A stretch of DNA of 64,000 nt, from contig NZ_QPIE01000007.1 in the NCBI RefSeq assembly GCF_003336205.1, forward strand, positions 124,001-188,000, given 5' to 3'. This document shows, in pieces, positions 7,047-29,994 of this stretch. Origin of the DNA: Chryseobacterium lacus (GTDB taxonomy: Bacteria > Bacteroidota > Bacteroidia > Flavobacteriales > Weeksellaceae). The notes beneath the pieces are model-generated. The model saw nothing but the letters and a program-made list of their open reading frames with translations. It had not been told where the DNA came from and did no database searches. The stretch's first letter is position 1; each line of letters opens with the position of its first letter. The translations under genes and the position numbers were made by a program.

Positions 7047-7102
<56 letters not shown>

Positions 7103-7119
<17 letters not shown>

Positions 7120-7153
7120 CTAAGCAAAGAGAATCATTTTGGTTCTCTTTTTT
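7103..7153 (+). repeat. attL: 51-bp direct repeat at the tRNA 3' end
   Basis: This 51-bp segment covers the tRNA T-loop to discriminator base, then the trailer and the tRNA's terminator hairpin. It is repeated without a mismatch at 29944-29994. The flanking bases differ (C before the left copy, A before the right), so the repeat has clear edges. A tyrosine integrase gene begins 150 bp inside. This is the classic arrangement for site-specific integration into a tRNA 3' end. Confidence 0.92.
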
Positions 7154-7241: not shown

Positions 7242-7283
7242 AGGCAACCATTTAGGTTACCATAATTTATCCGAGGTTACCAT
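7242..7283 (+). repeat. Three decamer repeats upstream of the integrase gene
   Basis: AGGCAACCAT (7242-7251), AGGTTACCAT (7254-7263) and AGGTTACCAT (7274-7283) lie between attL and the integrase start; the two identical copies are exactly 20 bp apart (two helical turns). Position and spacing suit arm-type integrase sites or operators. This is inference only. Confidence 0.4.
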
Positions 7284-7303: not shown

Positions 7304-8497
7304 ATGAATTTATCTATATTATTTCTTTTAAGAAGGAACAGAACTAACGAAAAAGGGTTTTGTCCTATTGAGTGTAGAATTACATTTCATAAACTGAGAA
7401 AACCATTTTCTACAGGTTTATTTATAAATCCTGATCATTGGAATTCTAAAAAGCAAAAAGCACATGCACTCTCTCCAGAAAATGAAGTGTTAAATAACCA
7501 ACTAAGCCTGATAAGACAAAAAGTTAATCAGGCTTTTTTAATACTCAAAATTCAGAAGGATACTTTTGATGTTGAGGATATTTATCTGCAATACAAAGGT
7601 GAGAATATCAGAACTGAAAAATCTCTGTTAGAAGCTTATAATCTACATAATGTAAGGATGAAAAAGCTCATTGGTATAGAATATTCTGAATCTACCTACA
7701 AGAAATTTGAGGAATCCAAGAATCATATTAAATCTTTTATGAAGCATAAAATTGGTAGCTCTAATATTCTCTTAAAAGATTTAAATATGAAGTTTCTACA
7801 TGATTTTGACTACTATATGAAGGTGGAAAAGAAGCTAAAACAGGTAACCATCAACAAGCATATTGAGAGATTGAGAAAGATCATTAAGCTAGCATTAGCA
7901 GAAGGGTTTCTCGAGAGAGATCCTTTTTTACTTTTCAGTCCTAAAAAGATAATTACAGAAGTAATATATCTTAATACAGAAGAGTTAAAGTTAATGGAGA
8001 AATATAGCTTCAGTCAGGAAAGATTACAGAAGGTTGCAGATATGTTTATTTTCTGCTGCTATACAGGCTTGCCCTATCAGGAGATGGCATCTTTAAAACA
8101 TGAGAATATTATTCAGGGATTTGATGGTAAAAAGTGGATCCAAATCTACAGACAGAAGACCAAGAAAACTCTTACCATTCCATTGCTCAGGAAAGCAGAG
8201 GATATTCTCTTAAAGTATGAACAGAATATTGAGATTCTACCAGTTATTTCCAATCAGCACTTTAATTCATTCCTGAAAGAAATTGCTGAGATACTGGGGA
8301 TCAAAAAAAGAATTACTCATCATACGGCAAGAAAGACTTTTGCTTCAACTGTATTGCTGTATAATGATATTTCCATGGAAATAGTCTCAGAGCTTTTAGG
8401 GCATTCTAATATTAGAGTGACTCAGAAGCACTATGCAAAGGTAGTGCAGAGAAAGGTAAGTGAACAGATGATAAACTTGGATAAAAAATTAAATTAG
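7304..8497 (+). CDS. Tyrosine-type site-specific recombinase (integrase) of the element
   Basis: 397 residues. An N-terminal arm-binding region of the Bacteroidota type (INPDHWNSKKQKA near 41-53), a SAM-like core-binding domain (about 105-205) and a C-terminal catalytic domain. Visible catalytic residues: Lys285 region (RQKTKKTLTIPL), His340-x-x-Arg343 (HHTARKTF), His367 (LLGHSNI) and nucleophile Tyr377 (QKHYAK). The first conserved Arg is replaced by Pro257 in TGLPYQEMASL; loss of this Arg is also known in the CTnDOT integrase IntDOT. It lies 150 bp inside attL and is transcribed away from the tRNA, as expected for the enzyme that integrates this element. CpG is scarce in the gene. Confidence 0.93.
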   Translation: MNLSILFLLRRNRTNEKGFCPIECRITFHKLRKPFSTGLFINPDHWNSKKQKAHALSPENEVLNNQLSLIRQKVNQAFLILKIQKDTFDVEDIYLQYKGENIRTEKSLLEAYNLHNVRMKKLIGIEYSESTYKKFEESKNHIKSFMKHKIGSSNILLKDLNMKFLHDFDYYMKVEKKLKQVTINKHIERLRKIIKLALAEGFLERDPFLLFSPKKIITEVIYLNTEELKLMEKYSFSQERLQKVADMFIFCCYTGLPYQEMASLKHENIIQGFDGKKWIQIYRQKTKKTLTIPLLRKAEDILLKYEQNIEILPVISNQHFNSFLKEIAEILGIKKRITHHTARKTFASTVLLYNDISMEIVSELLGHSNIRVTQKHYAKVVQRKVSEQMINLDKKLN

Positions 8498-8524: not shown

Positions 8525-9949
8525 TTATTCCCACTTTTCAATTTTAAGAGTTGGTTCTTTGCCAATATACTTCCGAGTGTATTTATTAATAAAATTTCTA
8601 ACAGTTTCAATATATGGCTCTGTAGTTATTATTGAGTCATGAATGGTAAAAAGAGGGATTTGCGGATAGGTTTTATTAATTTTCTTGCAAATCACCCTTA
8701 GCATCAAATCAGATTCAATTTTTTGTAATAACAAAGGAAATCTATTATGTTTTCCTTTCCCAGTTTTTGTCAGCTTAAACATTTCATATACTGTAGGAAA
8801 TGCATCTGCAAAAATTCTGATTGTAGGGTTGAAGCCAATGTGCTCATTTGGACTGTAAATAGAGGAAAAAGTAATGTCCTTGGCTCTTTTTCTCAGCTCT
8901 TGGGCTGGTAGTAAAGGATCTAAACTTCCATTATCCACCAGTAACTTCCCAAAATCTTCATAAAAATTACCTTCAGAAATACTTTTTAAATACATTTTAG
9001 TATCTGTCTCCAATCTTGCTTCCCTAACCATTTTTAATATCATAATAGGGATTGAAGATGCAGGTGGCACCCCATTAAACAACTTATCCATAACCTTATT
9101 AATAATAAAGTTATTTTCAAAGAAAAGAGCCCTGGTTAGAAAGGGTTGAGAATTAACCACGTCTATTGAAAACAGGCTTTCCCCTTTGTAAGTGACATGC
9201 TTTCTTAATTCAGATTTTAACCTTGTCAAGGGTGTGTGAAGCCTTCCTCCACTGGTATCAACTCCAAAAGCAAAACTTTTGTGGTGTAGTTCCAGAATTG
9301 GATGCAACCTACAGTTTAACCTTTCATGAGCATAGCAGTTTCCTTCCTCACTTTCTTTCCTAGCCATTTCACTTAAATCCCTGATAGCCCCTTCCACATC
9401 AATAGTCAAATCATCAAAATTCCTCTTTAGAAATGAAAGCTCCTCTGTCCGAGGCATATCTACCTTCTTCCTTACTCCTGTAATACTTTTCAGTAGCGTC
9501 GGTTTTGTAATTTCCACTGCTTTTAGTGGACTCAGGTATTCTTGTGTGAACTTTACACCCTTGGATTTAAAACCAGGGATATACTGCGCACTTTCTTCCA
9601 AAATTCCTTGAGAAATTAGATAGTCCAAGCACTTTCTGTATTTATAAATTGTCTTTTGTAAGACTTTACGGTTAATAGACGTATAACCGTTGCTGTCTAG
9701 AAATTTTAAATTTTTAGAAGGGATTGATGATATTAAACTCAAAATATAATTTAATTCATCTTTGTGCACAGGAAAATCTGGCGCATTTTCTGCCAAAATT
9801 TCATCAATGTCTACCTTTTCGGGTACGTACAAAAACATAGAACTTCTACTCTCACAGCGACTTATACCATTCAACCTTGCATCTAGGTTGGCGCTGTTAT
9901 ATCCGTGGTGGTTTTCAGATGCATTTCCACCATTAGTGATTGTATCCAT
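8525..9949 (-). CDS. Compact family-A-like nucleic acid polymerase (divergent, no exonuclease domain)
   Basis: 474 residues, not recognised as a named family, but the C-terminal half follows the Pol I/T7 RNA polymerase core in order. GGRLHTP (234-240) matches the Pol I GRLSS region; motif A is SIDVVNSQPFL with Asp263; motif B is RKRAKDITFSSIY with Arg353, Lys357, Phe361 and Tyr365 at Pol I spacing. Then follow a FPTVYEMF segment (384-391), LLQKIESDL with Gln409 (Pol I Gln849 position), and motif C TIHDS with His437-Asp438. Residues about 85-140 resemble a winged helix; no 3'-5' exonuclease motifs are seen. It is much shorter than Pol I. Divergent from the ATPase/DUF3871 pair, it may be the element's replicative or primer-making enzyme (inference). 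Confidence 0.65.
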   Translation of the reverse strand: MDTITNGGNASENHHGYNSANLDARLNGISRCESRSSMFLYVPEKVDIDEILAENAPDFPVHKDELNYILSLISSIPSKNLKFLDSNGYTSINRKVLQKTIYKYRKCLDYLISQGILEESAQYIPGFKSKGVKFTQEYLSPLKAVEITKPTLLKSITGVRKKVDMPRTEELSFLKRNFDDLTIDVEGAIRDLSEMARKESEEGNCYAHERLNCRLHPILELHHKSFAFGVDTSGGRLHTPLTRLKSELRKHVTYKGESLFSIDVVNSQPFLTRALFFENNFIINKVMDKLFNGVPPASSIPIMILKMVREARLETDTKMYLKSISEGNFYEDFGKLLVDNGSLDPLLPAQELRKRAKDITFSSIYSPNEHIGFNPTIRIFADAFPTVYEMFKLTKTGKGKHNRFPLLLQKIESDLMLRVICKKINKTYPQIPLFTIHDSIITTEPYIETVRNFINKYTRKYIGKEPTLKIEKWE

Positions 9950-9951
9950 TA

Positions 9952-9965
9952 CACTCCGAGGAGTG
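9952..9965. promoter_or_regulatory. Dyad (6-2-6) just upstream of the polymerase-like gene
   Basis: CACTCC-GA-GGAGTG lies 2 bases upstream of the ATG at 9949 (minus strand). The two-base centre is too tight for a stable hairpin, so a protein-binding operator in the divergent 9950-10071 region is more likely. No known operator was matched. Confidence 0.35.
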
Positions 9966-10071
9966 CTTTTATCCTCTGGAATCTTCCAGTAGGTGCCTTT
10001 TCAAAGTCAAGTGGATGTTACGAATCCTACAACATTTATACCAATAACATTATTACCAAAAACTTAAAATT

Positions 10072-11043
10072 ATGAATTTAAGACAATCAGAAAGAAAACA
10101 GGCCAAGATAAAAATGGCCTTACAGGGAAGTGCTGGATCAGGGAAGACTTATTCTTCTCTCTTACTGGCCAAGGGCCTTACAGGTGACTTCTCTAAAGTT
10201 GCTGTGATAGACACAGAGAATGGCAGTGCTGATCTTTATGCACACTTAGGAGGATATGGAGTGATTACTCTTACACCTCCATTTACACCTCAGAAATATG
10301 TGGAAGCCATTACGCTTTGTGAGAAAGCAGGGATTGAGGTAATTATTATGGACAGTATTTCCCACTGTTGGGATTACCTTCTGGACTATCATAGTTCACT
10401 GGCAGGGAATTCTTTTACAAACTGGGCTAAAATCAAGCCTCTAGAGAAGATATTTCTGGAGAAGATTCTACATTCACCCTGTCACATTATTGCTACCATG
10501 AGAACCAAACAGGACTATGTTCTGAACCAGAAGGATGGTAAAATGGTGCCTGAGAAAGTAGGTCTTAAGTCTGTGCAGAGAGATGGACTGGACTATGAAT
10601 TTACCTTAGTATTTGATGTGGATATTAAGCATTTTGCAGTCTCTTCAAAGGACAGAACTGGCCTATTTATGGGACAACCTGAATTTATTATCTCTGAAGA
10701 GACTGGAAAGATGATATTAGATTGGTGTAAGTCTGGATCTCACAGCCCTCTTCATGAGGTAAAAGGAGGAAATAAGTCTCTACCTGCAGTACAGCCTGAA
10801 GAGGCATTTGAATTCTCTCTTCAGGAGGATAAAAGATCTGTACTGTCTGAGAATGCAAGTGAAAAGGAAGTCTATGAGGCTATTCAGTGCTGTAATACAG
10901 TTCCTGAACTGGTAGCTCTGTACAAGCAGTTCCCAAGGTATCAGCAGACTTTAAGAGTGGATTTTGATGCCAAGAAATCATTAATAAAACATTTATCTAA
11001 CCCTGATAATTTTAGTAACAATGGAAAATCCAGAATACAATAG
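10072..11043 (+). CDS. RecA-fold AAA-family ATPase (phage/mobile-element type)
   Basis: 323 residues. Walker A GSAGSGKT (19-26) close to the N-terminus after the short MNLRQSERKQAKIKMALQ lead; a DTENGSADL segment follows; Walker B is VIIMDSIS; then a TMRTKQDY segment. This is the AAA_24/Sak4-like layout found in phages and integrative elements, where such proteins assist replication or single-strand annealing recombination. About 90 C-terminal residues have no recognised domain. It overlaps the next gene by 23 bp, implying coupled expression. Almost CpG-free (one CG in the gene, at 10313). Confidence 0.8.
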   Translation: MNLRQSERKQAKIKMALQGSAGSGKTYSSLLLAKGLTGDFSKVAVIDTENGSADLYAHLGGYGVITLTPPFTPQKYVEAITLCEKAGIEVIIMDSISHCWDYLLDYHSSLAGNSFTNWAKIKPLEKIFLEKILHSPCHIIATMRTKQDYVLNQKDGKMVPEKVGLKSVQRDGLDYEFTLVFDVDIKHFAVSSKDRTGLFMGQPEFIISEETGKMILDWCKSGSHSPLHEVKGGNKSLPAVQPEEAFEFSLQEDKRSVLSENASEKEVYEAIQCCNTVPELVALYKQFPRYQQTLRVDFDAKKSLIKHLSNPDNFSNNGKSRIQ

Positions 11044-12193
11044 TTATACTCCTTCAGAGAATGGACAAGCCTTATATAACCCTGGGGAATTCAAACCAAA
11101 GAGGAGCATCAGAGACTTCTTTCTTGAAGAGGATGAGGATGAAATACCAGAAGCTGAGATATTATATCCCAGTTCAATGAATCAAGATAATCAGGCTGAA
11201 TCCAATGTGGTTCAGCCTGTTTCTTTAGAAAAAAATGATGCTCCTTCCATTCTCTTTAAGAGTAAAGATGAGGTTAATCAACTGCCCTTTATTGTTGCCA
11301 ATACTTCAGAAATTTCTTTACAACATTTAAGTCAGGATTGTATCATCCCTGTGTTCAGTAAGGACAATGAGAAAACCATAGCACATCAGGAATTTATTGA
11401 GGTAATATTGGAAGCTGTAACAAAGATATTCCCTCAACATAGTATAGCAGATCCAGAAATAAGAGTATCTCATCAGATCAAAGGAAGAACTCCTACAGCT
11501 GTTCATAAAGCTGCTAAAGACCTTCTTGAAGAAGATAAAACCATCTACTATGAAAGAATGGCTTTTATGGTGAAAATCCCCTCTATTACTGAAGAGATCA
11601 ATGGCAACAAGCTTTCTTTGTGTGTAGGTGGAATTAGAAGCTACAATCAAGAAAACCTCTACTCAAAAAAGTCTTTAGAGAAATTCAAATTCTTTATTGG
11701 CTTTCAGAATTGGATTTGTATGAATATGTGTATTTCCACAGATGGATTTCTTGAAAATCTGCGTGTTTCTAATGCTAATGAATTAGGATTAAAAGCTCTA
11801 GAGGTAATGCAGAACTACAATGCAGAGCTACATCTGATGGAAATGAAGGAACTGACTCAGGATTATTTATCAGAACACCAGTTTGCACAGCTTATTGGTA
11901 AATCCAGATTGTATCAGCATTTGCCTAAATCTGAAAGGCAGAGAATCCCTGAACTTAATTTTAATGACAGCCATATTAATACAATGGCTAAGGATTATTA
12001 TGAAGATCAGAATTTCTCCAGAATGGAAGATGGAAGGATTAATTTATGGAATGTGTTCAATCTCTTTACACAAGCTAATAAGAGCAGTTATATAGACACT
12101 TTCCTGGACAGGAATCTGAATGCCTTTGACTTTTCAAAAGGTCTTCAGAAAACTCTCAATGGTGATTCTAATTATCATTGGTTTTTGAGTTAG
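11021..12193 (+). CDS. DUF3871-like mobile-element protein
   Basis: 390 residues. No enzyme motif was recognised. The general form, an acidic low-complexity N-terminus (EDEDEIPEAE) followed by a globular part with EIRVSHQIKGR, LCVGGIRSYN and FKFFIGFQNWICMNMC, fits the DUF3871/DUF932-type proteins of Bacteroidota elements that sit beside a RecA-like ATPase. It starts 23 bp before the ATPase gene ends and is followed at once by a strong terminator. A role in element DNA metabolism is inferred from position only. One CpG in the whole gene (11762). Confidence 0.6.
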   Translation: MENPEYNSYTPSENGQALYNPGEFKPKRSIRDFFLEEDEDEIPEAEILYPSSMNQDNQAESNVVQPVSLEKNDAPSILFKSKDEVNQLPFIVANTSEISLQHLSQDCIIPVFSKDNEKTIAHQEFIEVILEAVTKIFPQHSIADPEIRVSHQIKGRTPTAVHKAAKDLLEEDKTIYYERMAFMVKIPSITEEINGNKLSLCVGGIRSYNQENLYSKKSLEKFKFFIGFQNWICMNMCISTDGFLENLRVSNANELGLKALEVMQNYNAELHLMEMKELTQDYLSEHQFAQLIGKSRLYQHLPKSERQRIPELNFNDSHINTMAKDYYEDQNFSRMEDGRINLWNVFNLFTQANKSSYIDTFLDRNLNAFDFSKGLQKTLNGDSNYHWFLS

Positions 12194-12197
12194 TCAG

Positions 12198-12225
12198 ACC
12201 ACCTCACTTTTGTGGGGTGGTTTTT
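12198..12225 (+). terminator. Rho-independent terminator after the DUF3871-like gene
   Basis: ACCACCTCAC, loop TTT(T), GTGGGGTGGT with one G.T pair, then a T tract. It also overlaps the stop codon of the convergent NACHT gene and separates the two transcription units. Confidence 0.85.
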
Positions 12226-14659
12226 ATTTGTATATGTCAATATTTGAGGTAATTATTTTTGTGTCTTGGTATGATTTTCCAGTTATTACACATTGGGAAA
12301 AGTTATTTATATGATGCTTATCTAATATACTCTGAATAGTTGTACTATTATATTCTGTAAGCTGATGTAAATCTTTTTCAAGATTTTTAATAATTATACT
12401 ATCAGTGATATGATATAAATCACATAAATATTTGAAGTAATCTTTTAATTTCTTCATCTTCATAATAAGCTCTATATCAAAAATAAGATCAGAACGACTA
12501 GGTGTTTGTTCATATTTGTATTTTTCAAAAATCCTGAACTGATTATCTAATATTTTAGTAGAATTTAGTAGAGGAAGCAGATACTCCTTGCTGATTTGGG
12601 CAAAACAATTAGTAAAGATATTTTCATCAATCGATTTTTTATTGTTGGTAACGATGCTAAGGATAAATTGCTTTAATTCTTTTTCTTCTAATTCGACAAT
12701 TGCAGGGTTTATTTCTCTACTTTTTACATAAGTAAGATAATGATATATGTAGTCATTATCTCTCAGAACATCATCATATCTTACACTGCCTTTGCTATAA
12801 AATAAAAGGGAAATGAAAGTAGATCTATTATAATTGGAGGAAATAATTTTCTCCAATAAGAAATTGTAGTAGGCCTCAGTAAAGTTTAGTGATTCATAAA
12901 GTTTTTGTGAAATATAAAAATGATTACTTTGTGGGGATAATTTTTGAATTTCTTTTTGAATTTCTATTACAATTAAATTTGCAAAATGCTGCTCTTCTAA
13001 ACAGTATTCATATAAAAAAGTACAAATATGTTTTGATTGCTCTAAAGAATAAAGTTTTTGAACTAGTAATGAAATGAAGTCAGTTTTATTATCTATTTTT
13101 TTAAAGTACTCATAACCAAGTTCAAAACTTTCACCTTTTATAAGTTCCTTAGTTATATAATTAGTGTCCTGCTGATCAATAATAAATTGAACACCTAATA
13201 TTTCTTTAAACTTTCTATGTGGGAAATCATATTGATCAATATCATCAACTATTCCGATATAGCTAAAAATACCATTATTTATTATCTCATCTACAATGTT
13301 GTTCTTTTTGCCATCACGCAAGTTTTCTAAAACCTCATTATCGTCAAAAAAGTAATTAATTGCAGCCTGTTTTAATTGATCTATTGTAAAAGTATTTAAA
13401 TCTGCGTCAAAGTTTTTAAACGCGAAATATTTAATAAATGCAAGTTTCTTTTCGGTGTAGTTATTTCTTCTCCTTAAGTAAGCATTTTTTTTACCAATTG
13501 TATGATTCTTAACCTTTTCTTCATCGAGCTCAATTAAAAGCAATTCTATAAATTTATTTATTAAACTATAATAATCTGAAAGGAATTTAATCTTGGTATC
13601 TTTTGTGTTCTTTACATCATTAATATATATATAACACATAACTGTCAGAAATAAGGGAACTTTCGATAATGAAATAAGTTCCTTATCGCGAGAATTATCT
13701 ATTTCATAAATAAAAAATTCACCATCTAGTAAAGCTTTAAGTTCATTATTATTATTAAAGTATTTGGAAAAAAGTATATTAACTAATTTAAGTCTTTCAT
13801 CATCAACACCTTCCAGAGCTACTCCTGCAATATTCTCTTTGTATTTTACCATATGCTGTGTTGGTATAGGTAAATTGGACTTATAAAATTCTTTGCGCGA
13901 GGTTAACCAAACTTTTGACAAGTACATAGCATTATATATACTTGCATACTTGTCATCATACCTAAAATTTAAAGTGTTTGTTCCAGAACCAAAAATAAGT
14001 ATCAATTCCTCTCGTAGGTAATTCCTGTTTGCAACTGTGGATACCTCATCATAACCATCTAGGAAAAGGAATACATTCCTATTTCTTAAGTCACGTTCTA
14101 ATTTTTCTTCATTATTTTTGTAATATGAATTATTATTTAAAATATATTTTAAGACAGGATTCCTCGTTGAATTATCAATGATTTTTAGTGGAACATAGAT
14201 AGGTATAACTTTTTTAAGTTCTTTTGCTTCGTAGTTAAGTATTTTATATTTTTTATTAATAATTTTTAAAATAATATTTCTGGTAAAAGTAGTTTTACCA
14301 ATACCTGCATTACCAAGAATTAAAACAAAAGGTTTTATTTCATATTCTTGATATACAATTCGTCTTTCCTCAACTTTTAAGGATTCTATATCAATTTTAT
14401 TATCGAGAACTTCCACATAATTCCCCTCAATATCCAGTTCAAAATCATGTAAAACGAAAGGCATTTTAGATAATTCAGCATAAAGATTTTTGAAATAATT
14501 TTTCTTAGTACTTACTTTATCTATATACTTTTCTAAGATCCCATATTTATCAATATAAGGTTTGAGATTTGCAGAAATAACATTCCTAAAGATTAAGACC
14601 AACAAGCTAACTATAGCCAATAAATAAAAAGGAGTGCCACTAGGTAAAATTTCAGCCAT
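12224..14659 (-). CDS. Membrane-anchored NACHT-type STAND NTPase, putative defence protein
   Basis: 811 residues. One hydrophobic segment near the N-terminus (about 10-27), then a NACHT core: Walker A GNAGIGKTTF (116-125), extended Walker B VFLFLDGYDEV (196-206) with the small residue and DE pair typical of NACHT, and sensor VWLTSRKEF (250-258). A winged-helix-like FPHRKFKEILG motif follows; the remaining roughly 300 residues are helical, Asn/Lys/Ile rich, with no catalytic effector motif seen. NACHT proteins of bacteria act as phage sensors. It is the last gene of the leftward restriction operon (78 bp after hsdR). It is visibly more AT-rich than hsdR and contains about 30 CpGs by rough count, unlike its neighbours, suggesting separate acquisition. 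Confidence 0.78.
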   Translation of the reverse strand: MAEILPSGTPFYLLAIVSLLVLIFRNVISANLKPYIDKYGILEKYIDKVSTKKNYFKNLYAELSKMPFVLHDFELDIEGNYVEVLDNKIDIESLKVEERRIVYQEYEIKPFVLILGNAGIGKTTFTRNIILKIINKKYKILNYEAKELKKVIPIYVPLKIIDNSTRNPVLKYILNNNSYYKNNEEKLERDLRNRNVFLFLDGYDEVSTVANRNYLREELILIFGSGTNTLNFRYDDKYASIYNAMYLSKVWLTSRKEFYKSNLPIPTQHMVKYKENIAGVALEGVDDERLKLVNILFSKYFNNNNELKALLDGEFFIYEIDNSRDKELISLSKVPLFLTVMCYIYINDVKNTKDTKIKFLSDYYSLINKFIELLLIELDEEKVKNHTIGKKNAYLRRRNNYTEKKLAFIKYFAFKNFDADLNTFTIDQLKQAAINYFFDDNEVLENLRDGKKNNIVDEIINNGIFSYIGIVDDIDQYDFPHRKFKEILGVQFIIDQQDTNYITKELIKGESFELGYEYFKKIDNKTDFISLLVQKLYSLEQSKHICTFLYEYCLEEQHFANLIVIEIQKEIQKLSPQSNHFYISQKLYESLNFTEAYYNFLLEKIISSNYNRSTFISLLFYSKGSVRYDDVLRDNDYIYHYLTYVKSREINPAIVELEEKELKQFILSIVTNNKKSIDENIFTNCFAQISKEYLLPLLNSTKILDNQFRIFEKYKYEQTPSRSDLIFDIELIMKMKKLKDYFKYLCDLYHITDSIIIKNLEKDLHQLTEYNSTTIQSILDKHHINNFSQCVITGKSYQDTKIITSNIDIYK

Positions 14660-14737
14660 TATATTCTAATATGAGTCAATTATTTAATCTACTTTAATAT
14701 TCTAAGTGTTTTCTATCCACCTTTTTCTAATAAACTA

Positions 14738-17617
14738 TTACCCCCTAAACCCACTCACAAAAGTATCTACATAGCTTGCTATCTTATGCATGATTCTTTC
14801 ACTGCGGGGTTTTCTTTCCAGCAGGGTGGGTTTAGCTCCTACTATAAGACCTAAGAGTTCATCTCTTAAAGGCTTTTTCTCTGCAAAAAGATAATTCTCT
14901 ATTACTACCTCTGTTTTTTCATGGGATAGACTTTCTGTGGTAATGATCTTATTGAAAGCTGCTTTCTGTTCTACATCCCAGTACTTTTCAAACTCCTCTG
15001 TTACATCATCTTCCTCACCAAGTCTTGGCAGGTTCTCATTGATGAACTTTTCAATAAGCTCTCTCTTGCTTCTCAGGTTAACTTCAGATCCCAGGAGGGC
15101 TAAGATCTGTTTTTTAGTTTCCTCTTGCTTACTGGCTTTCTGGCCTTTCAGTTTTATCACTAGCTGCAAGATGTAAGTTACATTGATTTCATCTCTGTGG
15201 ATGAGGTCCAGTTCAAAGTCTATATCCTCCAAAATGGAGACCTTCTCCTTTACCTGAGTGGTTTTATCATACAGGTCAAGGTATTTACTCTTGTAGTCCT
15301 CAAATTCCTGCTCATACATCTTCAGATCTTTCCATTCAAAATCTGAGAAGGTGATAAGTACATTCCGAGTCCTCATCAATTCCCTGAAGGCCTGTACAAA
15401 CTTAAGTTCATCCTCCTCACTTTCCAGATCATTCACTGAATCTATAGTTGGAACTATCTTAAGCAGATCTTCAAATTGTTGGTTGAATTTTGCCACATAG
15501 TCCTCATATGGCTTTACAATGATCTCTTCAATAGCTTCTTTGTTGCTGAAGAGGGTTATAGCTTCATCAGTAGCTGCTTTTAGGTTTCTGAAAACTACAA
15601 TATTCCCCTGGGACTTCTTATCATTAAGTATTCTGTTAGTCCTGGAGAAAGCTTGAATTAAACCATGATGCTTGAGATTTTTATCTACATAGAGAGTATT
15701 CACCTTCTTGGCATCAAAACCGGTAAGGAACATATTAACTACCAGTAGAATGTCAATCCTGTTATCAGGATTCTCCGGGTCTTTTTCTCTGTCCTTTAAC
15801 TTCTTGGAAAGGTCATTATAATACAGGTAGAATTTCTCACTGTCCTTGGTGGTAAAGTCTGTATTGAAGGTTTTGTTATAATCCTGGATGTAAGATTCCA
15901 GTTTATCCCTGCTGTGGGTATCAACAGCATAGGCTGTCTGTCCTTCAGCAACTACAGGTACCTCATCATTCTCCAAAAGACCATTAGCTTCTGCATCATC
16001 TTCATTGACACCATAGGAGAATATAGTAGCTATGTTCAGGTTGTGCTCACCCTGTTCTTTTTTTCTCTTCAGGATATCATAATACTTGATCAGTGACTTA
16101 ACACTGCTCACACAGAACATGGCTGAAAAATCTTTGTTGTGTGTTTTCCTGTTATGGTTCTGAATGATATAATCTGAGATCTTCTCCAATCTCATGGAAG
16201 AGTCCATGATTTCCTGAACATCAATATTCTCCACCTCAATATCCACTTCAGTCCTGGATTCTTCTTTTTCTCTGTACCTGCCAATGTATTCTACAGCAAA
16301 CTTCAGTACATTTTCATCCCTGATGGCATCTGTAATTACATACTTATGCAGACAGTCACCAAAGAGCTCCTTTGTAGTTCTTTTGCCTAGAGCATTTTTT
16401 ACAGCATTATCTTTGAAAATAGGAGTTCCTGTAAAGCCAAAAAGCTGGATATTATTGAAGAACTTTTTTATCCTGCCATGGGTTTCTCCAAACTGGGATC
16501 TGTGGCATTCATCAAAGATGAAGACCATTTTTTCATCCTTCAGCTTTTCCATTTTGTCTGAATAATGCTTCTTGGAGATGGCTGTATTCAGTTTCTGAAT
16601 GGTAGTTACTATCAGCTTAGTATCATCTTCAAACTGTTTAACCAGGGCTCGGGTGTTATCTGTACCATCAATACTTCCTTTGCTGAAGGAATTAAATTCT
16701 TTCGTAGTCTGATAATCCAGATCCTTCCTGTCAACAACAAAGACCACCTTCTTTATCTCTGGAATCTTGGTAAGGATCTGACTTGCTTTAAAGGAGGTTA
16801 GGGTCTTTCCTGAACCAGTGGTGTACCATACATAACCATTCTTATTGGTTTCTTTTACCAACTGAACCAATGCTTCTACTGCATAAAATTGGTAAGGTCT
16901 TAAAACCATAAGCACTTTATGGGTTTCATTCAATACAATGTACTTGCAAATAAGCTTGCTAAGGTTGCAGGGTTCCAGAAACTCTTCAGAAAAACCATTA
17001 AGAATATTGGTTATCCTTTTATTCTCCTTATCAGTCCAGTAGAAGGTTTGGTTGAAACTCTGTTTCCTGTTATTTGCGTAGTATTTGGTATTAACTCCAT
17101 TGCTGATTACAAATACCTGCACATACTGAAATAAAGCTGAATTTGAGGCATAGGAATGCCTGTGATACCTATTTATTTGGTTGAAAGCCTCTTTCAGCTC
17201 TAAGCCTCTTCTCTTTAATTCTATCTGGCAGAGTGGAAGACCATTAATGAGTATGGTGACATCATACCTGGTCTTGTAGGTTCCTTCAATGGTAATCTGA
17301 TTAGTGACTTGGAACTGATTTTGGCACCAGGATTCTGTATCCAAAAATTCAAAGTAGAGATTCTCACCATTATCACGAATGATGTGTTGCTTCTCCCTGA
17401 GAGTTTTAGCTTTCTCAAAGACAGAACCTTTGTTCAGGATATTAAGTACTTTATCAAACTCATGGGGGGTGAATTCAATTTTATTGTGCTTTTCCAGTTG
17501 GATTTTTAAATTGGCAAGAAGGTCCTTTTCATCTCTAATAGTTACAGGCTTATAACCCAGCTTCTGTAACCGTGCGATAACCTGTTCTTCAAGGACTTGT
17601 TCTGATTGTTTGGACAT
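14738..17617 (-). CDS. hsdR: Type I restriction enzyme, R (endonuclease/translocase) subunit
   Basis: 959 residues, usual length. The N-terminal PD-(D/E)xK nuclease is visible as RYDV (Asp119) and QIELKRR (Glu133, Lys135). The SF2 motor has Walker A TTGSGKT (266-272), DECHRS box (369-374), GFTGTP (motif III) and QAFSRTNR (motif VI); the helical C-terminus binds the methylase. It cleaves unmodified DNA at a distance from the site after ATP-driven translocation, together with HsdM and HsdS. Here hsdR is separated from hsdS by two accessory genes. CpG is rare. Confidence 0.95.
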   Translation of the reverse strand: MSKQSEQVLEEQVIARLQKLGYKPVTIRDEKDLLANLKIQLEKHNKIEFTPHEFDKVLNILNKGSVFEKAKTLREKQHIIRDNGENLYFEFLDTESWCQNQFQVTNQITIEGTYKTRYDVTILINGLPLCQIELKRRGLELKEAFNQINRYHRHSYASNSALFQYVQVFVISNGVNTKYYANNRKQSFNQTFYWTDKENKRITNILNGFSEEFLEPCNLSKLICKYIVLNETHKVLMVLRPYQFYAVEALVQLVKETNKNGYVWYTTGSGKTLTSFKASQILTKIPEIKKVVFVVDRKDLDYQTTKEFNSFSKGSIDGTDNTRALVKQFEDDTKLIVTTIQKLNTAISKKHYSDKMEKLKDEKMVFIFDECHRSQFGETHGRIKKFFNNIQLFGFTGTPIFKDNAVKNALGKRTTKELFGDCLHKYVITDAIRDENVLKFAVEYIGRYREKEESRTEVDIEVENIDVQEIMDSSMRLEKISDYIIQNHNRKTHNKDFSAMFCVSSVKSLIKYYDILKRKKEQGEHNLNIATIFSYGVNEDDAEANGLLENDEVPVVAEGQTAYAVDTHSRDKLESYIQDYNKTFNTDFTTKDSEKFYLYYNDLSKKLKDREKDPENPDNRIDILLVVNMFLTGFDAKKVNTLYVDKNLKHHGLIQAFSRTNRILNDKKSQGNIVVFRNLKAATDEAITLFSNKEAIEEIIVKPYEDYVAKFNQQFEDLLKIVPTIDSVNDLESEEDELKFVQAFRELMRTRNVLITFSDFEWKDLKMYEQEFEDYKSKYLDLYDKTTQVKEKVSILEDIDFELDLIHRDEINVTYILQLVIKLKGQKASKQEETKKQILALLGSEVNLRSKRELIEKFINENLPRLGEEDDVTEEFEKYWDVEQKAAFNKIITTESLSHEKTEVVIENYLFAEKKPLRDELLGLIVGAKPTLLERKPRSERIMHKIASYVDTFVSGFRG

Positions 17618-17619
17618 AC

Positions 17620-18135
17620 TTAAAAATAACCAAATTGAGTTTCGTAATCTTTATTTTCCACAATAAACAGATGCCAGGAAGCTAAATCGTTACCAAATCT
17701 ATTTCTACTCTTTGTTGTGGTAAACTCAAATGTGGTAGTAGCTCCCGCATAAATTTTTATCAGATTTCCATTTTCAACTTTTGTATTTATTGGAGATGGT
17801 GCAAATCGCTTTACAGCTTCCAAATATTCAGTAGCCTTCTGGCTTTTCCCTATTTGAATATCAATTCTATTCTCCCCATAAACTGGGTAGTAGAAAGTGA
17901 GAAAACTTTCTGCATAATCAAAATCTCCACCTGTGCCATATACAAATTGTGCCTTTCCCAATTTTCCTTCCTCTGGAGATTCACCAGTTTTATAATGCCA
18001 ACCTTTCTTAGTTAAAAAAGATTCTACCTGATCCAAATCCATTTTTCTTAAAGCTATTAACTCATTTAGAGATAGGTTTTGGGCTGATAATCCAATGCAC
18101 ACAAATAATAAAGCAAATAATAAGATTTTTTTCAT
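17620..18135 (-). CDS. Secreted hypothetical protein inside the restriction operon
   Basis: 171 residues, family not recognised. It starts MKKILLFALLFVCIGLSAQ, a Sec signal peptide with likely cleavage after SAQ, so the product would be periplasmic or exported. The mature part has LNELIALRKMDLDQVESFL, a pattern also seen in other small flavobacterial secreted proteins, then a beta-rich body. The gene is tightly packed: 18 bp after the DUF4268 gene and 2 bp before hsdR. An exported protein in a restriction operon is unexpected, and no role can be deduced. Confidence 0.75.
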   Translation of the reverse strand: MKKILLFALLFVCIGLSAQNLSLNELIALRKMDLDQVESFLTKKGWHYKTGESPEEGKLGKAQFVYGTGGDFDYAESFLTFYYPVYGENRIDIQIGKSQKATEYLEAVKRFAPSPINTKVENGNLIKIYAGATTTFEFTTTKSRNRFGNDLASWHLFIVENKDYETQFGYF

Positions 18136-18153
18136 GATGTGAATATTAAATTG

Positions 18154-19272
18154 TTAATATACTTGTTTCTGCACTTTCTCCCAATAGGGGTAAAGGACTT
18201 TGTAAAATTCTTTCATTGTTGTTGTATACCACGTAGTGATCTCATCCCAGGATCTTTCTTCACTGAACTTTCCTGGTAGGGCTTTATACTTCTCCAAAGG
18301 CATTTCATACTTAATCCTGGAAGCTTTCTTTCCTTCCAGTCTTTCCCATTCCAGACCGGGAAATCTGGCTTGTAACTGCTCATTAAAGGTGAACATAGAA
18401 TCTATGTACTTCTTATCTGCATCATCCTGAAAATATAGTTCTACCCTGTAATTATTTTTCCCAATACAAAATGCAAACTTGCCTCTGCCTTTCCAGAATC
18501 CTGTACTGTAAAATGGTTGGGCACTTGTCCTGTCCAGATAATCCAGTCTCTCCTCTGTGAGTTTATTTTTTAATAAAGACCAGAATTGGATAAGTCTGGC
18601 TTCAGATTCTTCCAGATTTTTGCTTTTTGCCTGCTCTTCCTTTTCTTTTTCTTTTGCATCTATCATAAATTCCTTCGTCTCTGGTAGTGGTATAATTTGT
18701 TCTACCTGAAGGAATACTTCATCTCCCATGGAGTAGGGAGTAGCTCTGAAACATTGAACCTGGATGTCATGATTGAGCAGCCATAGAACTGTGGATGTAA
18801 CCTCTTTTCTGTAATTATTGGCTACAAAAATAATACGCTGATCTTTTCTGTTAAGGAGAAGTTCTTCCTCTGATCTTTCAATAAAATCAAGCAGATTCTG
18901 TTTAGCATTTTCTCCATTGTGCCACCTGTCTAAGTATTGTTGGTAGATCTTAACTATCTGACTGGTGGTTAGGGTAGAGCAATAAGAAGCATACTTTAAA
19001 GCCTGCCATACTACATTTCTTCCTGTATCATCCAGCTTATTCTCAATAATAACCAAGCCACCATCTTTATCTATGGCCAGAAGGTCCAGTCTTTCCTGAG
19101 TGTCATTAAAACCATCAAATTCTTTTTGAATTATCAGGAGGTCCTCACCAAGCATCTCTGGATTTTTGGCTATCCATTCCTGCAGGTGCTCTCTTTCTTT
19201 TATAGCTAACTGCTTAAAGAGTCTCTCCTCAAGCTTAACTACATTATTGGTGCTTTTATCTATTTTATACAT
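18154..19272 (-). CDS. DUF4268 protein with PD-(D/E)xK-like N-terminal domain
   Basis: 372 residues. The N-terminal part shows a restriction-nuclease-like pattern: ERLDLLAID (Asp63) followed by GLVIIENKL (Glu77, Lys79) and a helix QALKYASYCS, as in NucS/RecB-type folds. After a charged linker (about 205-222) the C-terminal half resembles DUF4268 (WSLLKNKL, FWKGRGKFAFCIG, RVELYFQ). Such proteins are often found in restriction-modification loci; whether this one cuts DNA or protects the host is unknown. It sits 11 bp after hsdS in the operon. Confidence 0.75.
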   Translation of the reverse strand: MYKIDKSTNNVVKLEERLFKQLAIKEREHLQEWIAKNPEMLGEDLLIIQKEFDGFNDTQERLDLLAIDKDGGLVIIENKLDDTGRNVVWQALKYASYCSTLTTSQIVKIYQQYLDRWHNGENAKQNLLDFIERSEEELLLNRKDQRIIFVANNYRKEVTSTVLWLLNHDIQVQCFRATPYSMGDEVFLQVEQIIPLPETKEFMIDAKEKEKEEQAKSKNLEESEARLIQFWSLLKNKLTEERLDYLDRTSAQPFYSTGFWKGRGKFAFCIGKNNYRVELYFQDDADKKYIDSMFTFNEQLQARFPGLEWERLEGKKASRIKYEMPLEKYKALPGKFSEERSWDEITTWYTTTMKEFYKVLYPYWEKVQKQVY

Positions 19273-19283
19273 CCTAAGTTATT

Positions 19284-20495
19284 TTACACAAACATCTGCT
19301 GCAACAGCCCTTTTTTCCAAAGTTCTGTTTTGTTTATTTGCTGCTCAACTAAAGCTATTTTATCATCTAAGGCAGTTAGGAAATCTGCTATTTTCTCCTG
19401 TTCTTTTATAGAAGGTAAAGGTATTTTTATTTGTGAAAAATTCTCATAAAACAAATATTGCCTTACGCCTCCCTCAGCAATTCTTAACACCTGGTTGTTG
19501 AAGTTGTAAGATTTCAAGAATTTTAATAGAAACTCATCGTATAAGTTTTCAGATGTTTGAAAGCATACATATAAGGAACTAATAATGACTTCAGAGTTTC
19601 CTTTGTATAAACCAACAGATCCTACGTTAATTCTAGCCGGGTTGTATGCAAAGGTATTTTTGCCTACTATTTTATACATAGAAACATCGTATCCCTTTTC
19701 ATTTGAATCTAATCCTTCGAATTGTTCTGATTGAGGTAGAAACCCTTCAACATTATTTACGGAATAAATCGGCAAATTAAGTCTATTTCTATTTTTTTTA
19801 TCTGTCTTAAACGTCACATCCTTTAGAGTTTTTGCTTCCCACTCAGGAAAATCCTTACCTTCTTCATCTTTGAACCTCAGTTCCTGAGAAAAGATTTTCT
19901 GCGTCACTCCTTTTTTGTACTGCTCCAGGAGTTCCTTTTTCTTTTTTAGGAGGCTAATTTTTTCATCTACTGAAGTAAAGAAGTCTGCTATTTTTTGTTG
20001 TTCATTTTTATCAGAATGAATCGTGATGCTGCCTGATAATAAGAATTCACTTTCAGCAGTAATATATCTATCCCCAACTAACACTAATCCTCTCAAAAAA
20101 TTATTGGTCCTGTTTAAATGTGAGAAATAGGAATCCAGATAATCAGCTGAAACATTATCAGCTACCTTGAAAGTGTAATATAGGGTGGAAAGGAGACCGT
20201 CTTTGCAGTTGTTCACTTTAAACAAGCCAAAAGGGTAACTTGCACTGATGCTCTTTCCATAGACAAAATCTTTATATCTACATTTCTTATAGGCTAGATG
20301 ATTAACTTTATCATATGTGTCATTTAATAATCCCTTCCTGTCAACTATACCATGAATAGAGGATAATGAAAGAATATCATCTCTATTAAATTCTGCATCA
20401 AGATTAGATTCCGAATACCGCTTTAATATTTGATTGAGTTTTAATTTGATGAAATTGGAAGTAGAATCCTTAAACCTGATTTTTGGGATAGTCAT
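19284..20495 (-). CDS. hsdS: Type I restriction-modification specificity subunit
   Basis: 403 residues with the standard two-fold layout: target recognition domain 1 (about 1-160), central conserved helix (KIADFFTSVDEKISLLKKK, then KGVTQKIFSQELRF), recognition domain 2 (about 215-365) and a C-terminal conserved helix (EQEKIADFLTALDDKIALVEQ). It selects the bipartite DNA site for HsdM and HsdR. The target cannot be read from sequence. Recognition domain 2 (about 19441-19812) contains nine CpGs, while the conserved parts either side have almost none, suggesting domain exchange. It abuts hsdM by 1 bp. Confidence 0.92.
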   Translation of the reverse strand: MTIPKIRFKDSTSNFIKLKLNQILKRYSESNLDAEFNRDDILSLSSIHGIVDRKGLLNDTYDKVNHLAYKKCRYKDFVYGKSISASYPFGLFKVNNCKDGLLSTLYYTFKVADNVSADYLDSYFSHLNRTNNFLRGLVLVGDRYITAESEFLLSGSITIHSDKNEQQKIADFFTSVDEKISLLKKKKELLEQYKKGVTQKIFSQELRFKDEEGKDFPEWEAKTLKDVTFKTDKKNRNRLNLPIYSVNNVEGFLPQSEQFEGLDSNEKGYDVSMYKIVGKNTFAYNPARINVGSVGLYKGNSEVIISSLYVCFQTSENLYDEFLLKFLKSYNFNNQVLRIAEGGVRQYLFYENFSQIKIPLPSIKEQEKIADFLTALDDKIALVEQQINKTELWKKGLLQQMFV

Positions 20496-20496
20496 A

Positions 20497-22068
20497 TTAA
20501 AAAGGTTTAGGGATTTCTAATTCAGCACAGAAGCCTGCAACTTTTTTATCTACAACTGACATTTCCTTTTCCAGAGAGCTTAAATCACCTGCAATACTAT
20601 TTATGTCTATATCCTCTTCTGATTCAAAGGTATCTACATACCTTGGAATATTCAGGTTATAATCATTCTCCTTTATTTCCTCAAGAGAAACATTCCTGCT
20701 GTATTTCTCAATTTCAGTTCTTGCTTTAAAAGTGTCATAGATTTTCTGGATATGCTCATCCTGAAGATAGTTCTGGGTTTTTATCTTCTCAAAATCATTA
20801 CTGGCATCTATAAAGAGAATTGATTCCGGAGTTTCTCTGCACTTCTTAAATACTAGGATTGCAGTTGGAATACTGGTGCCATAAAACAGGTTTCCTGGCA
20901 GTCCAATTACAGCATCAAGGTAATTGCGGGTTTCTATTAGAAACTTCCTGATATGGCCTTCTGCACCTCCTCTGAAGAGTACTCCATGCGGTAATACAAT
21001 AGCCATGGTACCATTCTCTGCCAGATGATAAATCATGTGCTGTACAAAGGCAAAATCTGCCTTACTGGAGGGGGCCAATCTTCCATAAGGTGCAAACCTT
21101 TCATCTGTACTCAGGATAGGGTTGGCAGACCATTTAGAAGAGAAGGGAGGATTGGCCACAATAGCTTCAAACTCCTGTCCCATATGCTGTGGGTGCTCCA
21201 GGGTATCTTCCTGTTTAATGTCAAACTTCCTGAAATGAACCCCATGCAGGATCATGTTCATCCGGGCTAAGTTATAGGTGGTTCTGTTGAGCTCCTGCCC
21301 ATAAAAATCTCCAACCTGATCTTTTACTTCCCGGGCCACCCTGAGGAGTAGGGAACCACTTCCACAGGTAGGATCATAAACCGTTTTAAGTTTTGATTTT
21401 CCTGTAGTGACTATTTTAGCCAACAGCTTACTTACCTGTTGTGGCGTGTAAAATTCTCCAGCTTTTTTACCTGCCCCTGAAGCAAACTGACCTATCAGAT
21501 ATTCATAGGCATCACCCAGAACATCAAGCTCTGTTTCTTCCAGTTTAAAATCAATCTGATCTAAATGGAAAAGCACTTTTGAGATCAGTTCATTTCTCTG
21601 TGTAGGGGTTTTGCCCAGTTTGGAGTTGTTGAGGTCCATATCCTCAAACAGGTTATCAAAATCCTCTTCAGATTCTGTACCCATAGTGCTGAGCTGAATG
21701 TTGTTTAAAATCTTCTGGATCTCTTCTAAGATAAAAGTATCTCCACCCTTATCAGAGTTTCCTTTTTTAGTCACCTCACTGAACAGTTCAGAAGGTTTCA
21801 GGTAATAACCCAGGGCCTCAAGTGCTTCCTCTCTGATGGCTTCAAGATATTCCTTACCATCCTCACTGTTCTCATCAATGGATTTGTAGGAGATCTTATC
21901 TTCCTTCAGGATACTGGAGGCAAAGATGTCCATCTTCTCAGACAGGTATTTATAAAATATGAATCCCAGGATATAATCCCTGAACTCATCTGCATTCATT
22001 TTCCCTCTTAAAGTATTAGCGATATTCCAGAGCTGCTGCTCCAGTTGTTTCTTGTGTTCTTCTGACAT
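20497..22068 (-). CDS. hsdM: Type I restriction-modification DNA methyltransferase subunit
   Basis: 523 residues. N-terminal HsdM helical domain (KQLEQQLWNIANTLRGKM, FIFYKYLSEKM), then the N6-adenine methylase core: motif I DPTCGSGSLL (232-241) and motif IV NPPF (306-309), preceded by GEFYTPQQVS. It methylates adenine in the HsdS-defined site, protecting host DNA. First enzyme gene of the operon, 25 bp after the lipoprotein gene. Confidence 0.95.
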   Translation of the reverse strand: MSEEHKKQLEQQLWNIANTLRGKMNADEFRDYILGFIFYKYLSEKMDIFASSILKEDKISYKSIDENSEDGKEYLEAIREEALEALGYYLKPSELFSEVTKKGNSDKGGDTFILEEIQKILNNIQLSTMGTESEEDFDNLFEDMDLNNSKLGKTPTQRNELISKVLFHLDQIDFKLEETELDVLGDAYEYLIGQFASGAGKKAGEFYTPQQVSKLLAKIVTTGKSKLKTVYDPTCGSGSLLLRVAREVKDQVGDFYGQELNRTTYNLARMNMILHGVHFRKFDIKQEDTLEHPQHMGQEFEAIVANPPFSSKWSANPILSTDERFAPYGRLAPSSKADFAFVQHMIYHLAENGTMAIVLPHGVLFRGGAEGHIRKFLIETRNYLDAVIGLPGNLFYGTSIPTAILVFKKCRETPESILFIDASNDFEKIKTQNYLQDEHIQKIYDTFKARTEIEKYSRNVSLEEIKENDYNLNIPRYVDTFESEEDIDINSIAGDLSSLEKEMSVVDKKVAGFCAELEIPKPF

Positions 22069-22720: not shown

Positions 22721-23764
22721 TTGAATCTACCTTACAGCTCAGCAGTACCCATTAATCTTTTAGCCTCCTGCTTTAACAGCACATCTGCCACTTATAAGTT
22801 TTACTGGTTACTGGCTATTCTTGATGCTGCAGAAGAGGGTAAGAGGGAGGTAAGTAAGAAGGAACTTTTTGCCAGGATGCTCTCTACATCATGGTATACA
22901 GTGAATTATTTTAATATCTCCTTTGGATTTCAGGATTTAATCCAAAAAGCAGTACAGGAGATAAAAGAACTGGAGGATATCAGGATAGATGCAGACAGAA
23001 GTCTGATCTTTCAGAAACTGAGTAATCCAACCTCTGCTAAAACTGAAGTTCTACTAAAGCACTTTGATAAGAATGTGCCTCACTGGTTTCTGAGTCCATG
23101 GTATCCAGGTAGAAACAAGCAAGACATCTATATCTTATCCCAGGAGAACTCCCATTCTCCTTTATATGCCCTCTACAGAGATAAAATAATAATAAATTCA
23201 GACTGGGTTGAATATCTTCAGAAGAACAGCAGGATCATCAGGGATTTTATATACTGGAATTTAGCCATGTTTTTACAGATCAGAAACCCCAATGTGCCTG
23301 ATATTCCCAATAAACTCATTAAGCCAGCCACAAGAAGTACATTGCTTAACCAAAGGAAATTCTGGGATATGATCCTGGATGAGGTAGGTTCACTGGAGTG
23401 CATTTACACAGGAAAAAAGCTGACTAAGGGTAATTATCATGTGGAGCACTTTGTACCCTACAGCTTTGTATCTCATAACCAGATATGGAACCTCATTCCT
23501 GGAGACATCTGTTTTAACCTTTCAAAGAGTAACAAACTTCCTGTGATGGATAGGTACTTTGAGGGTTTCTTTAATCTCCAGAAACTGGCTCTGGATGTTT
23601 ACCTGGATAAGAAGCCCCAGGAAAAACTGCTGCAGGAATATTTTTATATAGATAAGAACTTTGCAGAGGGTATAGACAGGGATAAGTTCTTTCAGGTCAT
23701 TAATCCCCTGATTACCATAGCAAGTAACAATGGCTTTAACTTCTATACAGAAAAACCATGCTAG
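22721..23764 (+). CDS. HNH endonuclease-domain protein
   Basis: 347 residues. The first about 220 residues are helical with no named domain. The C-terminal part has an HNH (beta-beta-alpha metal) motif: CIYTGKKL (227-234), HVEHF with His240 and His243, WNLIP (Asn257) and NLSKSNKLP (266-274). The best start is TTG at 22721, since the frame is closed by a stop at 22706 and no ATG lies near it. The gene contains no CpG at all across its 1,044 bases. It overlaps the HIT gene by 7 bp, so the two are co-translated. A nucleic acid nuclease is likely; its target is unknown. Confidence 0.8.
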   Translation: MNLPYSSAVPINLLASCFNSTSATYKFYWLLAILDAAEEGKREVSKKELFARMLSTSWYTVNYFNISFGFQDLIQKAVQEIKELEDIRIDADRSLIFQKLSNPTSAKTEVLLKHFDKNVPHWFLSPWYPGRNKQDIYILSQENSHSPLYALYRDKIIINSDWVEYLQKNSRIIRDFIYWNLAMFLQIRNPNVPDIPNKLIKPATRSTLLNQRKFWDMILDEVGSLECIYTGKKLTKGNYHVEHFVPYSFVSHNQIWNLIPGDICFNLSKSNKLPVMDRYFEGFFNLQKLALDVYLDKKPQEKLLQEYFYIDKNFAEGIDRDKFFQVINPLITIASNNGFNFYTEKPC

Positions 23765-24135
23765 ATCACTGTCCTTTCTGTCTTGATCATCTGGATAGAA
23801 CCATTATTCTGGAAAATGAAAACTGTTATGCCATTTATGATGGGTTTCCCGTGAGCAAAGGGCATGTACTTATAATTTCCAAGAGACATACAGCCAACTT
23901 TTTTGAACTTTCATCTTTGGAGCAGCAGGACTGTTTAGGCCTGCTTAATGAGGCTAAAAAGCTTGTTGACAGGGAATATTCCCCTGATGGGTATAATGTA
24001 GGAATAAACATTAGCAGGGAAGCAGGACAGACCATTTGGCATGTGCATGTACATTTAATACCAAGATATGAAGGGGATGTGATTAATGCACGTGGGGGAG
24101 TGAGGGGAGTGATTCCCCATAAAAAAGAATACTGA
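23758..24135 (+). CDS. HIT-family nucleotide hydrolase/transferase
   Basis: 125 residues, full HIT domain. N-terminal CPFC (5-8), a GHVLIISKRH segment and the histidine triad in GQTIWHVHVHLIPR (His95, His97, His99). The C-terminus RGGVRGVIPHKKEY is typical of bacterial Ap4A-hydrolase-like HIT proteins. Members hydrolyse dinucleoside polyphosphates or nucleotidyl adducts. Its ATG overlaps the end of the HNH nuclease gene, implying a functional pair. Confidence 0.9.
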   Translation: MLDHCPFCLDHLDRTIILENENCYAIYDGFPVSKGHVLIISKRHTANFFELSSLEQQDCLGLLNEAKKLVDREYSPDGYNVGINISREAGQTIWHVHVHLIPRYEGDVINARGGVRGVIPHKKEY

Positions 24136-27368: not shown

Positions 27369-27743
27369 ATGAAAAAACATTTTAAGGGATTTGTAGCTAA
27401 AGTAGAGCTATTAAAATCTCAAAGAGCAACAGAAGACATCAATGGACTGATGCCAGTCATCTTGTTGGGTATTGGAGGTGAAATGCCATCCAGAAATGTC
27501 ATTAGTGGAACAGTAGCAGAGAGTATGAATTTAGAACCTGGAGCTGTTTATCTGTTCAATGCTAAAGAGCAGGATTCAGACCCTGTGTATGGGAGAAGAT
27601 TCAGATTTATGACTTTATCTCAAGAATTAGGACCTGTAGAGACTTTACAGGCTTGTCAGTTTGTAGGGGATCTTAAGATTGTAGATGTAGAATCTCCAAT
27701 GGTTCCTGAAGAAGACTTTGATGAAGTCCTCACAGAAAAATAG
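27369..27743 (+). CDS. Hypothetical mobile-element protein
   Basis: 124 residues, no named family. N-terminal Lys-rich (MKKHFKGFVAKVELL), a hydrophobic Gly-containing strand (LMPVILLGIGGEMPSRN), VYLFNAKE, and an acidic tail (PEEDFDEVL). The beta-rich layout with an acidic C-terminus is reminiscent of single-strand DNA-binding proteins, but there is no motif to confirm this. It has its own leader with hairpins and its own terminator. Confidence 0.6.
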   Translation: MKKHFKGFVAKVELLKSQRATEDINGLMPVILLGIGGEMPSRNVISGTVAESMNLEPGAVYLFNAKEQDSDPVYGRRFRFMTLSQELGPVETLQACQFVGDLKIVDVESPMVPEEDFDEVLTEK

Positions 27744-29943: not shown

Positions 29944-29994
29944 GAGTCGTGTCCCCGCTACTAAGCAAAGAGAATCATTTTGGTTCTCTTTTTT
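29944..29994 (+). repeat. attR: second copy of the 51-bp direct repeat
   Basis: Identical over 51 bases to 7103-7153. It contains only the T-loop-to-discriminator end of the tRNA plus its terminator hairpin, with no 5' tRNA half, so it is a duplicated attachment core, not a second tRNA. A perfect palindrome CTCTTAAGAG lies just inside at 29925-29934. Confidence 0.92.

Follow-up and report, generated by a model that had tools for sequence, protein, structure and literature searches.

A tRNA-Met-integrated element and its genes

The window (the whole 64,000-nucleotide stretch of the Chryseobacterium lacus contig that was analysed) contains an integrative element bounded by two identical repeats at a tRNA-Met gene (Table 1). 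The element between the repeats measures 22,841 bp and has a GC content of 35%, compared with 39-42% outside. When joined, its flanks match a contiguous 659-bp stretch with 95% identity in a genome of the same genus (G001), which represents the empty site. Just inside the left border lies an integrase gene, followed on the opposite strand by the gene for a small polymerase and, across a divergent intergenic region, by genes for a RecA-like ATPase and a DUF3871 protein. Repeats were looked for in this intergenic region and none were found, so we propose no origin there. Two copies of AGGTTACCAT, 20 bp apart at positions 7254-7283 (+), are situated between the tRNA-Met and integrase genes and are possible integrase arm sites; two matches to this 9-mer were reached in 3 of 100 shuffles. 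The original prediction had assigned the polymerase to a mobile element and placed RecA-like and DUF3871-like genes next to it, a claim that is supported by the Pfam matches, the attachment repeats, the empty site and the recurring neighbours described below.

Table 1. Features of the integrated element, in window coordinates.
Feature	Position	Strand	Basis
tRNA-Met (CAT), integration site	7047..7120	+	ARAGORN
Left attachment repeat, 51 bp (tRNA-Met 3' end and terminator)	7103..7153	+	Exact direct repeat
Tyrosine recombinase (integrase)	7304..8497	+	Pfam Phage_int_SAM_5, Phage_integrase
Minimal family-A polymerase, 474 aa	8525..9949	-	ORF from ATG; 74-sequence alignment; AF2 and Foldseek; hhalign
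H437-D438, motif C in beta-hairpin (434-436 / 439-443)	8636..8641	-	74/74; model
Q409 of LLQxxE (Pol I Q849 position)	8723..8725	-	73/74; TV-Pol also has LLQxxE
R353-x3-K357, fingers motif B	8879..8893	-	R 68/74, K 74/74; predicted helix 349-365
D263, motif A catalytic Asp (IDxxNSQP)	9161..9163	-	74/74; ends predicted strand 257-264
R236, conserved beta-hairpin Arg (Pol I R668 equivalent)	9242..9244	-	74/74; aligned to Pol I GRLHT/GRLSS
N-terminal winged-helix-like domain, residues 38-147	9509..9838	-	Helix/strand order in model; hhalign A3/TV match begins here
Divergent intergenic region, polymerase vs ATPase-DUF3871 genes, 122 bp	9950..10071	.	ORF map
RecA-like ATPase (AAA_24, Sak4-like)	10072..11043	+	PF13479 2.9e-18; PHROG 1366 4e-74; PHROG 124 Sak4-like 4e-8
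DUF3871 protein	11021..12193	+	PF12987 1.1e-143; 23-base overlap with ATPase gene
Cargo: STAND/NACHT-like NTPase, type I restriction-modification genes, PDC-S11 candidate	12224..22068	-	Pfam; PADLOC PDC-S11 1.9e-133
STAND/NACHT-like NTPase, 811 aa, likely defence protein	12224-14659	-	nSTAND3 3e-6, NACHT 1e-5
Close homologue of defence candidate PDC-S11, between type I R-M HsdR and HsdS genes	18154-19272	-	PADLOC 1.9e-133
Right attachment repeat, identical 51 bp	29944..29994	+	Exact direct repeat

Among the restriction-modification genes of the cargo, HsdS and HsdM were assigned from sequence and homologues only. RadC and SRAP genes are also present in the island. An HNH_4 protein with weak PtuB similarity, followed immediately by a HIT-like protein recognised only from its sequence, is encoded at 22721-24135 (+), and the two may form a defence pair. 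A short uncharacterised protein that is common to islands L039 and L049 is encoded at 27369-27743 (+).

The predicted model of the DUF3871 protein (pLDDT 76) consists of long antiparallel strands followed by helices, and a fold search with it gave no significant match to solved folds. An assignment as an OB-fold single-stranded DNA-binding protein is unsupported by the model, and the RAD52 entries that appeared had E-values of 0.4-0.6 only, which we do not take as evidence. DUF3871 is scarcely mentioned in the literature searched; its sequence is better conserved (47-74% identity) than that of the adjoining polymerase (20-46%).

A minimal family-A polymerase

To define the polymerase family, a narrower alignment (A2) was scanned against GTDB genomes and IMG/VR, which yielded 99 relatives; the family alignment has 74 members. 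Further relatives were found as whole-genome matches, on a Hymenobacter plasmid and in huge uncultured phages (L009-L012, 595-735 kb), so that the family is a large one, present in mobile elements of Bacteroidota and in phages. Since the homologues were drawn from collections of both whole genomes and viruses and can be aligned over their full length, a chance open reading frame is excluded. Family members are 396-580 amino acids long.

The open reading frame and every residue named in the original prediction (D263 of motif A; R353, K357, F361 and Y365 of motif B; Q409; H437 and D438 of motif C) are present at the expected positions and conserved in the 74 homologues. Residues R236, D263, Q268, Y330, K357, E412, T435, H437 and D438 are invariant in all 74, and R353, R249, N266-S267, P269 and Q409 nearly so. 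Position 353 is a Lys in five of the sequences that do not carry the Arg, and F361 is kept in 56 of the 74. Position 365, a Tyr in the window's polymerase and in 15/74, is a Phe in 58/74. Two of the invariant residues, R236 and Q268, had not been listed in the prediction and form part of the same active site. The R-x3-K-x3-F-x3-Y spacing of motif B is identical in the host DNA polymerase I (L141; R705, K709, F713, Y717), and the order of the motifs is the same; however, the minimal polymerase lacks both the 5'-3' and the 3'-5' exonuclease, and the distance from the motif B Lys to the Gln is 52 residues, compared with 91 in the host enzyme. Within the family R236 and D263 are separated by 24-29 residues and Q409 and D438 by 27-30, narrow ranges indicating that the spacing is constrained there, whereas the D263-R353 stretch is variable (51-171 residues). 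A conserved Asp in the fingers is described for the TV-Pol group discussed below; between residues 264 and 437 there is no invariant Asp in the 74-sequence alignment, nor is there one in three TV-Pol yardsticks.

We predicted the structure with AlphaFold2 using the family alignment (pLDDT 90.4, pTM 0.88), and only residues 1-31 were modelled poorly. When the model was compared with the PDB using Foldseek, the 50 best matches were all Pol I-type DNA polymerases (Klenow, Taq, Bst, apicoplast Pol and Pol theta). The best was the Klenow structure 1kfd with an E-value of 1.9e-5, and TM-scores across the matches were low at 0.27-0.43, which marks the polymerase as a distant, minimal version of the Pol I fold. 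Long helices (residues 150-222) make up the thumb, and helical fingers carry R353 and K357. The predicted strand 257-264 finishes at D263, helix 403-427 holds Q409 and E412, and hairpin 434-443 holds H437-D438. The adjacency of the two Asp residues expected of a palm is thus indicated only by the topology of the model, with D263 at a strand end and D438 in a hairpin. N-terminal to the thumb, the model has a winged-helix-like set (helices 63-79, 94-100 and 104-113; strands 117-119 and 131-134). In the BFVD collection, the best match was an unnamed 409-amino acid protein (E 3e-23). Next came a protein from an uncultured marine phage annotated as "Putative DNA polymerase I", and proteins of Barba and Aeromonas phages ranked further down. 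The fold search therefore sustains the proposal of a compact family-A core, the exonuclease domain is indeed absent, and the probable winged helix is recovered as a winged-helix-like N-terminus from the predicted order of helices and strands. The Pol I fold matches, the missing exonuclease and the winged-helix-like N-terminus together define a minimal family-A polymerase core made up of thumb, palm and fingers.

Relationship to known polymerase groups

The polymerase family falls outside all Pfam and NCBIfam models, and searching Pfam, NCBIfam, PHROGs and the PDB sequences with the single sequence returned nothing useful. The designed-PPR matches of the single-sequence search are repeat artefacts, and a Pfam HTH_56 (Cch) match in one family member (0.0065) did not recur. 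PHROG 4756, the function of which is not annotated, matched 18 of the 74 relatives weakly (best 1.7e-7).

Profile-profile comparison with hhalign joined the family to two described groups. The first is TV-Pol, the transposon-virus polymerase of Iyer, Abhiman and Aravind (2008; PMC2579912). Our yardsticks for this group were a Microcystis phage Ma-LMM01 ORF, Polaromonas and Calothrix plasmid relatives, and IMG/VR and Bacteroidota relatives; the Ma-LMM01 ORF (MAP_030) was picked by its motifs and a neighbouring transposase, as PMC2579912 names the phage and not this ORF. Against nine TV-Pol sequences the family gave Prob 93.5 and P 2.3e-7 over 330 collinear columns, which include the N-terminus, so that the winged-helix-like domain aligns with the TV-Pol N-terminal region. 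The best P among 25 column-permuted alignments was 0.29, and leaving out one yardstick at a time gave P 3.6e-8 to 6.8e-5. One member of the TV-Pol set (L144) is probably spurious, and the match was better without it. With just three TV-Pols the match was weak (Prob 13). A second alignment, of 26 members mostly sampled from whole-genome matches, matched TV-Pol with P 1.2e-9.

The other group is divPolA2, phage (Caudoviricetes) polymerases described in 2024 (PMC11348598). Five divPolA2 proteins gave the strongest core match (Prob 97.1, P 5.2e-11, 182 core columns; best permuted control 0.24). This alignment begins at residue 226, and the N-termini did not align. The TV-Pol and divPolA2 profiles barely match each other (P 0.02), and the family, by matching both, bridges the two groups. 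TV-Pol in turn matches Pol I (P 2.3e-5), whereas the family does so only weakly (P 0.056), in an alignment that superposes RxxxK and pairs HDS with HDE. No direct match to the DNA_pol_A profile was found in Pfam, so the link to Pol I is indirect, through TV-Pol; given the weak profile match and the low TM-scores, the family-A assignment rests on motifs, fold and intermediates.

The family shares with TV-Pol a nuclease-free family-A core with a beta-hairpin Arg, two Asp residues, a fingers Lys and LLQxxE, and an N-terminal domain. The beta-hairpin Arg, absolutely conserved in TV-Pol, corresponds to the invariant R236. TV-Pols also occur in integrase- or resolvase-linked mobile elements near restriction-modification genes, and have Bacteroidetes members. 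As in TV-Pol, sequence scans and neighbourhood clusters revealed neither a nuclease fusion nor a conserved nuclease neighbour, the HNH and HsdR genes being cargo. In contrast, motif A reads IDxxNSQP in the family, compared with YDxxxCH in the yardsticks, motif C is HDS rather than HDG, and the partners are AAA_24 and DUF3871, whereas a subset of TV-Pols is linked or fused to a D5-like helicase. The window proteins scanned included no recognisable helicase, whether D5-like or of another type, and no conserved D5-like cluster was recognised beside the relatives among the clusters scanned. The divPolA2 proteins are likewise short (~430-500 amino acids), lack an exonuclease, have an active palm and an unusual N-terminal domain, and similar folds are found in BFVD. 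They differ in their FDE motif C and in their occurrence in lytic phages with variable neighbourhoods, beside a PolB; the profile match spans the core and leaves out the N-terminal domain.

The original prediction that the family had not been described is therefore too strong, as it is a relative of TV-Pol and divPolA2, and Bacteroidetes TV-Pols (Cytophaga, Polaribacter, Psychroflexus and a Flavobacteriales bacterium) were already listed in PMC2579912. For the Bacteroidota subfamily and its integrase-polymerase-AAA_24-DUF3871 module we found no Pfam or NCBIfam model, named PHROG or description in the literature searched. The polymerase is thus of a known kind. What is new, as far as we checked, is the subfamily with its module and its bridging position, although the Bacteroidetes entries of 2008 may already belong to this subfamily.

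A recurring gene neighbourhood

An integrase homologue is present in 59 of the 99 polymerase loci, usually adjoining the polymerase gene, and such pairs recur across Bacteroidota, usually at tRNA genes. The AAA_24 ATPase occurs in 23 loci and DUF3871 in 25; these counts are not fully independent, because two of the loci on viral contigs may be duplicates of loci from genomes (e.g. L121, L102). Of the 19 loci that have the gene order of the window, 18 have a tRNA gene (Met, Val, Asn, Arg, Asp or Pro) immediately past the integrase. The AAA_24/DUF3871 context is strongly clustered on the tree (7 changes vs 20.5 when shuffled), with 20 of 24 such loci in one supported 24-row clade. The integrase-polymerase pair also persists in loci without the ATPase and DUF3871. 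Among other polymerase loci, an HTH_17 gene is nearby in 21 and a serine resolvase in 6.

Proposed role

That the protein has polymerase chemistry is well supported by its fold and active-site residues. Together with the element borders and the conserved neighbourhood, these suggest, with a probability of about 0.7, that a minimal DNA polymerase of the TV-Pol kind serves the 22.8-kb element by copying its DNA after excision, most likely as the element's own replicase or primase-polymerase. The 51-bp repeats and the empty site suggest that the integrase would excise the element from tRNA-Met; on the element thus excised, or on its transferred form, the polymerase would then make DNA. The divergently encoded Sak4-like ATPase and DUF3871 may assist on single-stranded DNA in those loci that have them.

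It is also possible that the polymerase synthesises its own primers, perhaps aided by a partner that binds DNA. What makes priming plausible is that TV-Pols have been predicted, from gene context, to prime and to replicate their elements (PMC2579912), and that CCPol primes together with MP, polymerase and primase activity having been shown for CCPol-MP of SCCmec (PMC7581432). CCPol-MP and the PolA-SSB pairs (PMC10061031) are likewise element-encoded family-A polymerases in recombinase-carrying islands and serve as functional models. However, CCPol is much nearer to housekeeping Pol I, and its operon includes genes for an OB-fold partner and a helicase, neither of which was recognised here; no small gene that could encode an OB-fold partner adjoins the polymerase within the window.

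A repair or gap-filling polymerase, which would complete the complementary strand after single-stranded entry of the element and not replicate it, is an unlikely reading. The Sak4-like ATPase, of the ssDNA-annealing/recombination type, the RadC and SRAP genes and the lack of a recognised helicase are consistent with it, but no relaxase was recognised among the part of the island proteins scanned, and the integrase-polymerase pair is kept in loci that lack the ATPase and DUF3871.

We consider it still less probable that the enzyme makes RNA, as a DNA-dependent RNA polymerase or a pure primase. In favour of this reading, the HDS form of motif C is also that of T7 RNA polymerase. RNA synthesis is one option suggested for divPolA2 (PMC11348598), the strongest profile match of the family, but no RNA polymerase is among the 50 best PDB fold matches, and on these matches we rejected RNA synthesis as the primary reading. 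The residue that would select the nucleotide also argues against it. In Pol I the steric gate is a Glu (E710), five positions after the motif A Asp. The minimal polymerase has at this position the invariant Gln268, a bulky and not a small residue, so dNTPs are expected as its substrate. The STAND NTPase, type I restriction-modification and PDC-S11 genes could indicate that the polymerase belongs to the defence function of the island and not to its mobility; this is highly improbable, since in the set of 99 loci it is the integrase, and not the defence genes, that accompanies the polymerase (HSDR 6, HSDM 4, HSDS 4). As the polymerase is also found in huge phages and viral contigs, the proposed replicative role may not hold in every setting.

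Implications

Bacteroidota commonly carry defence islands at their tRNA genes. The conserved integrase-polymerase pair provides a marker for finding such islands and a testable replication module. More tentatively, tRNA-integrated elements of Bacteroidota might constitute a large unnamed class that replicates by its own minimal primase-polymerase with a family-A core, in which the Sak4-like ATPase and DUF3871 replace helicase and SSB, and the polymerase family might be the connecting link through which TV-Pol and divPolA2 merge into one minimal family-A clade. By joining two separately described groups, the family helps to define the smallest working version of the fold of Pol I and T7 RNA polymerase, and compact polymerases or primases might be obtained from it.
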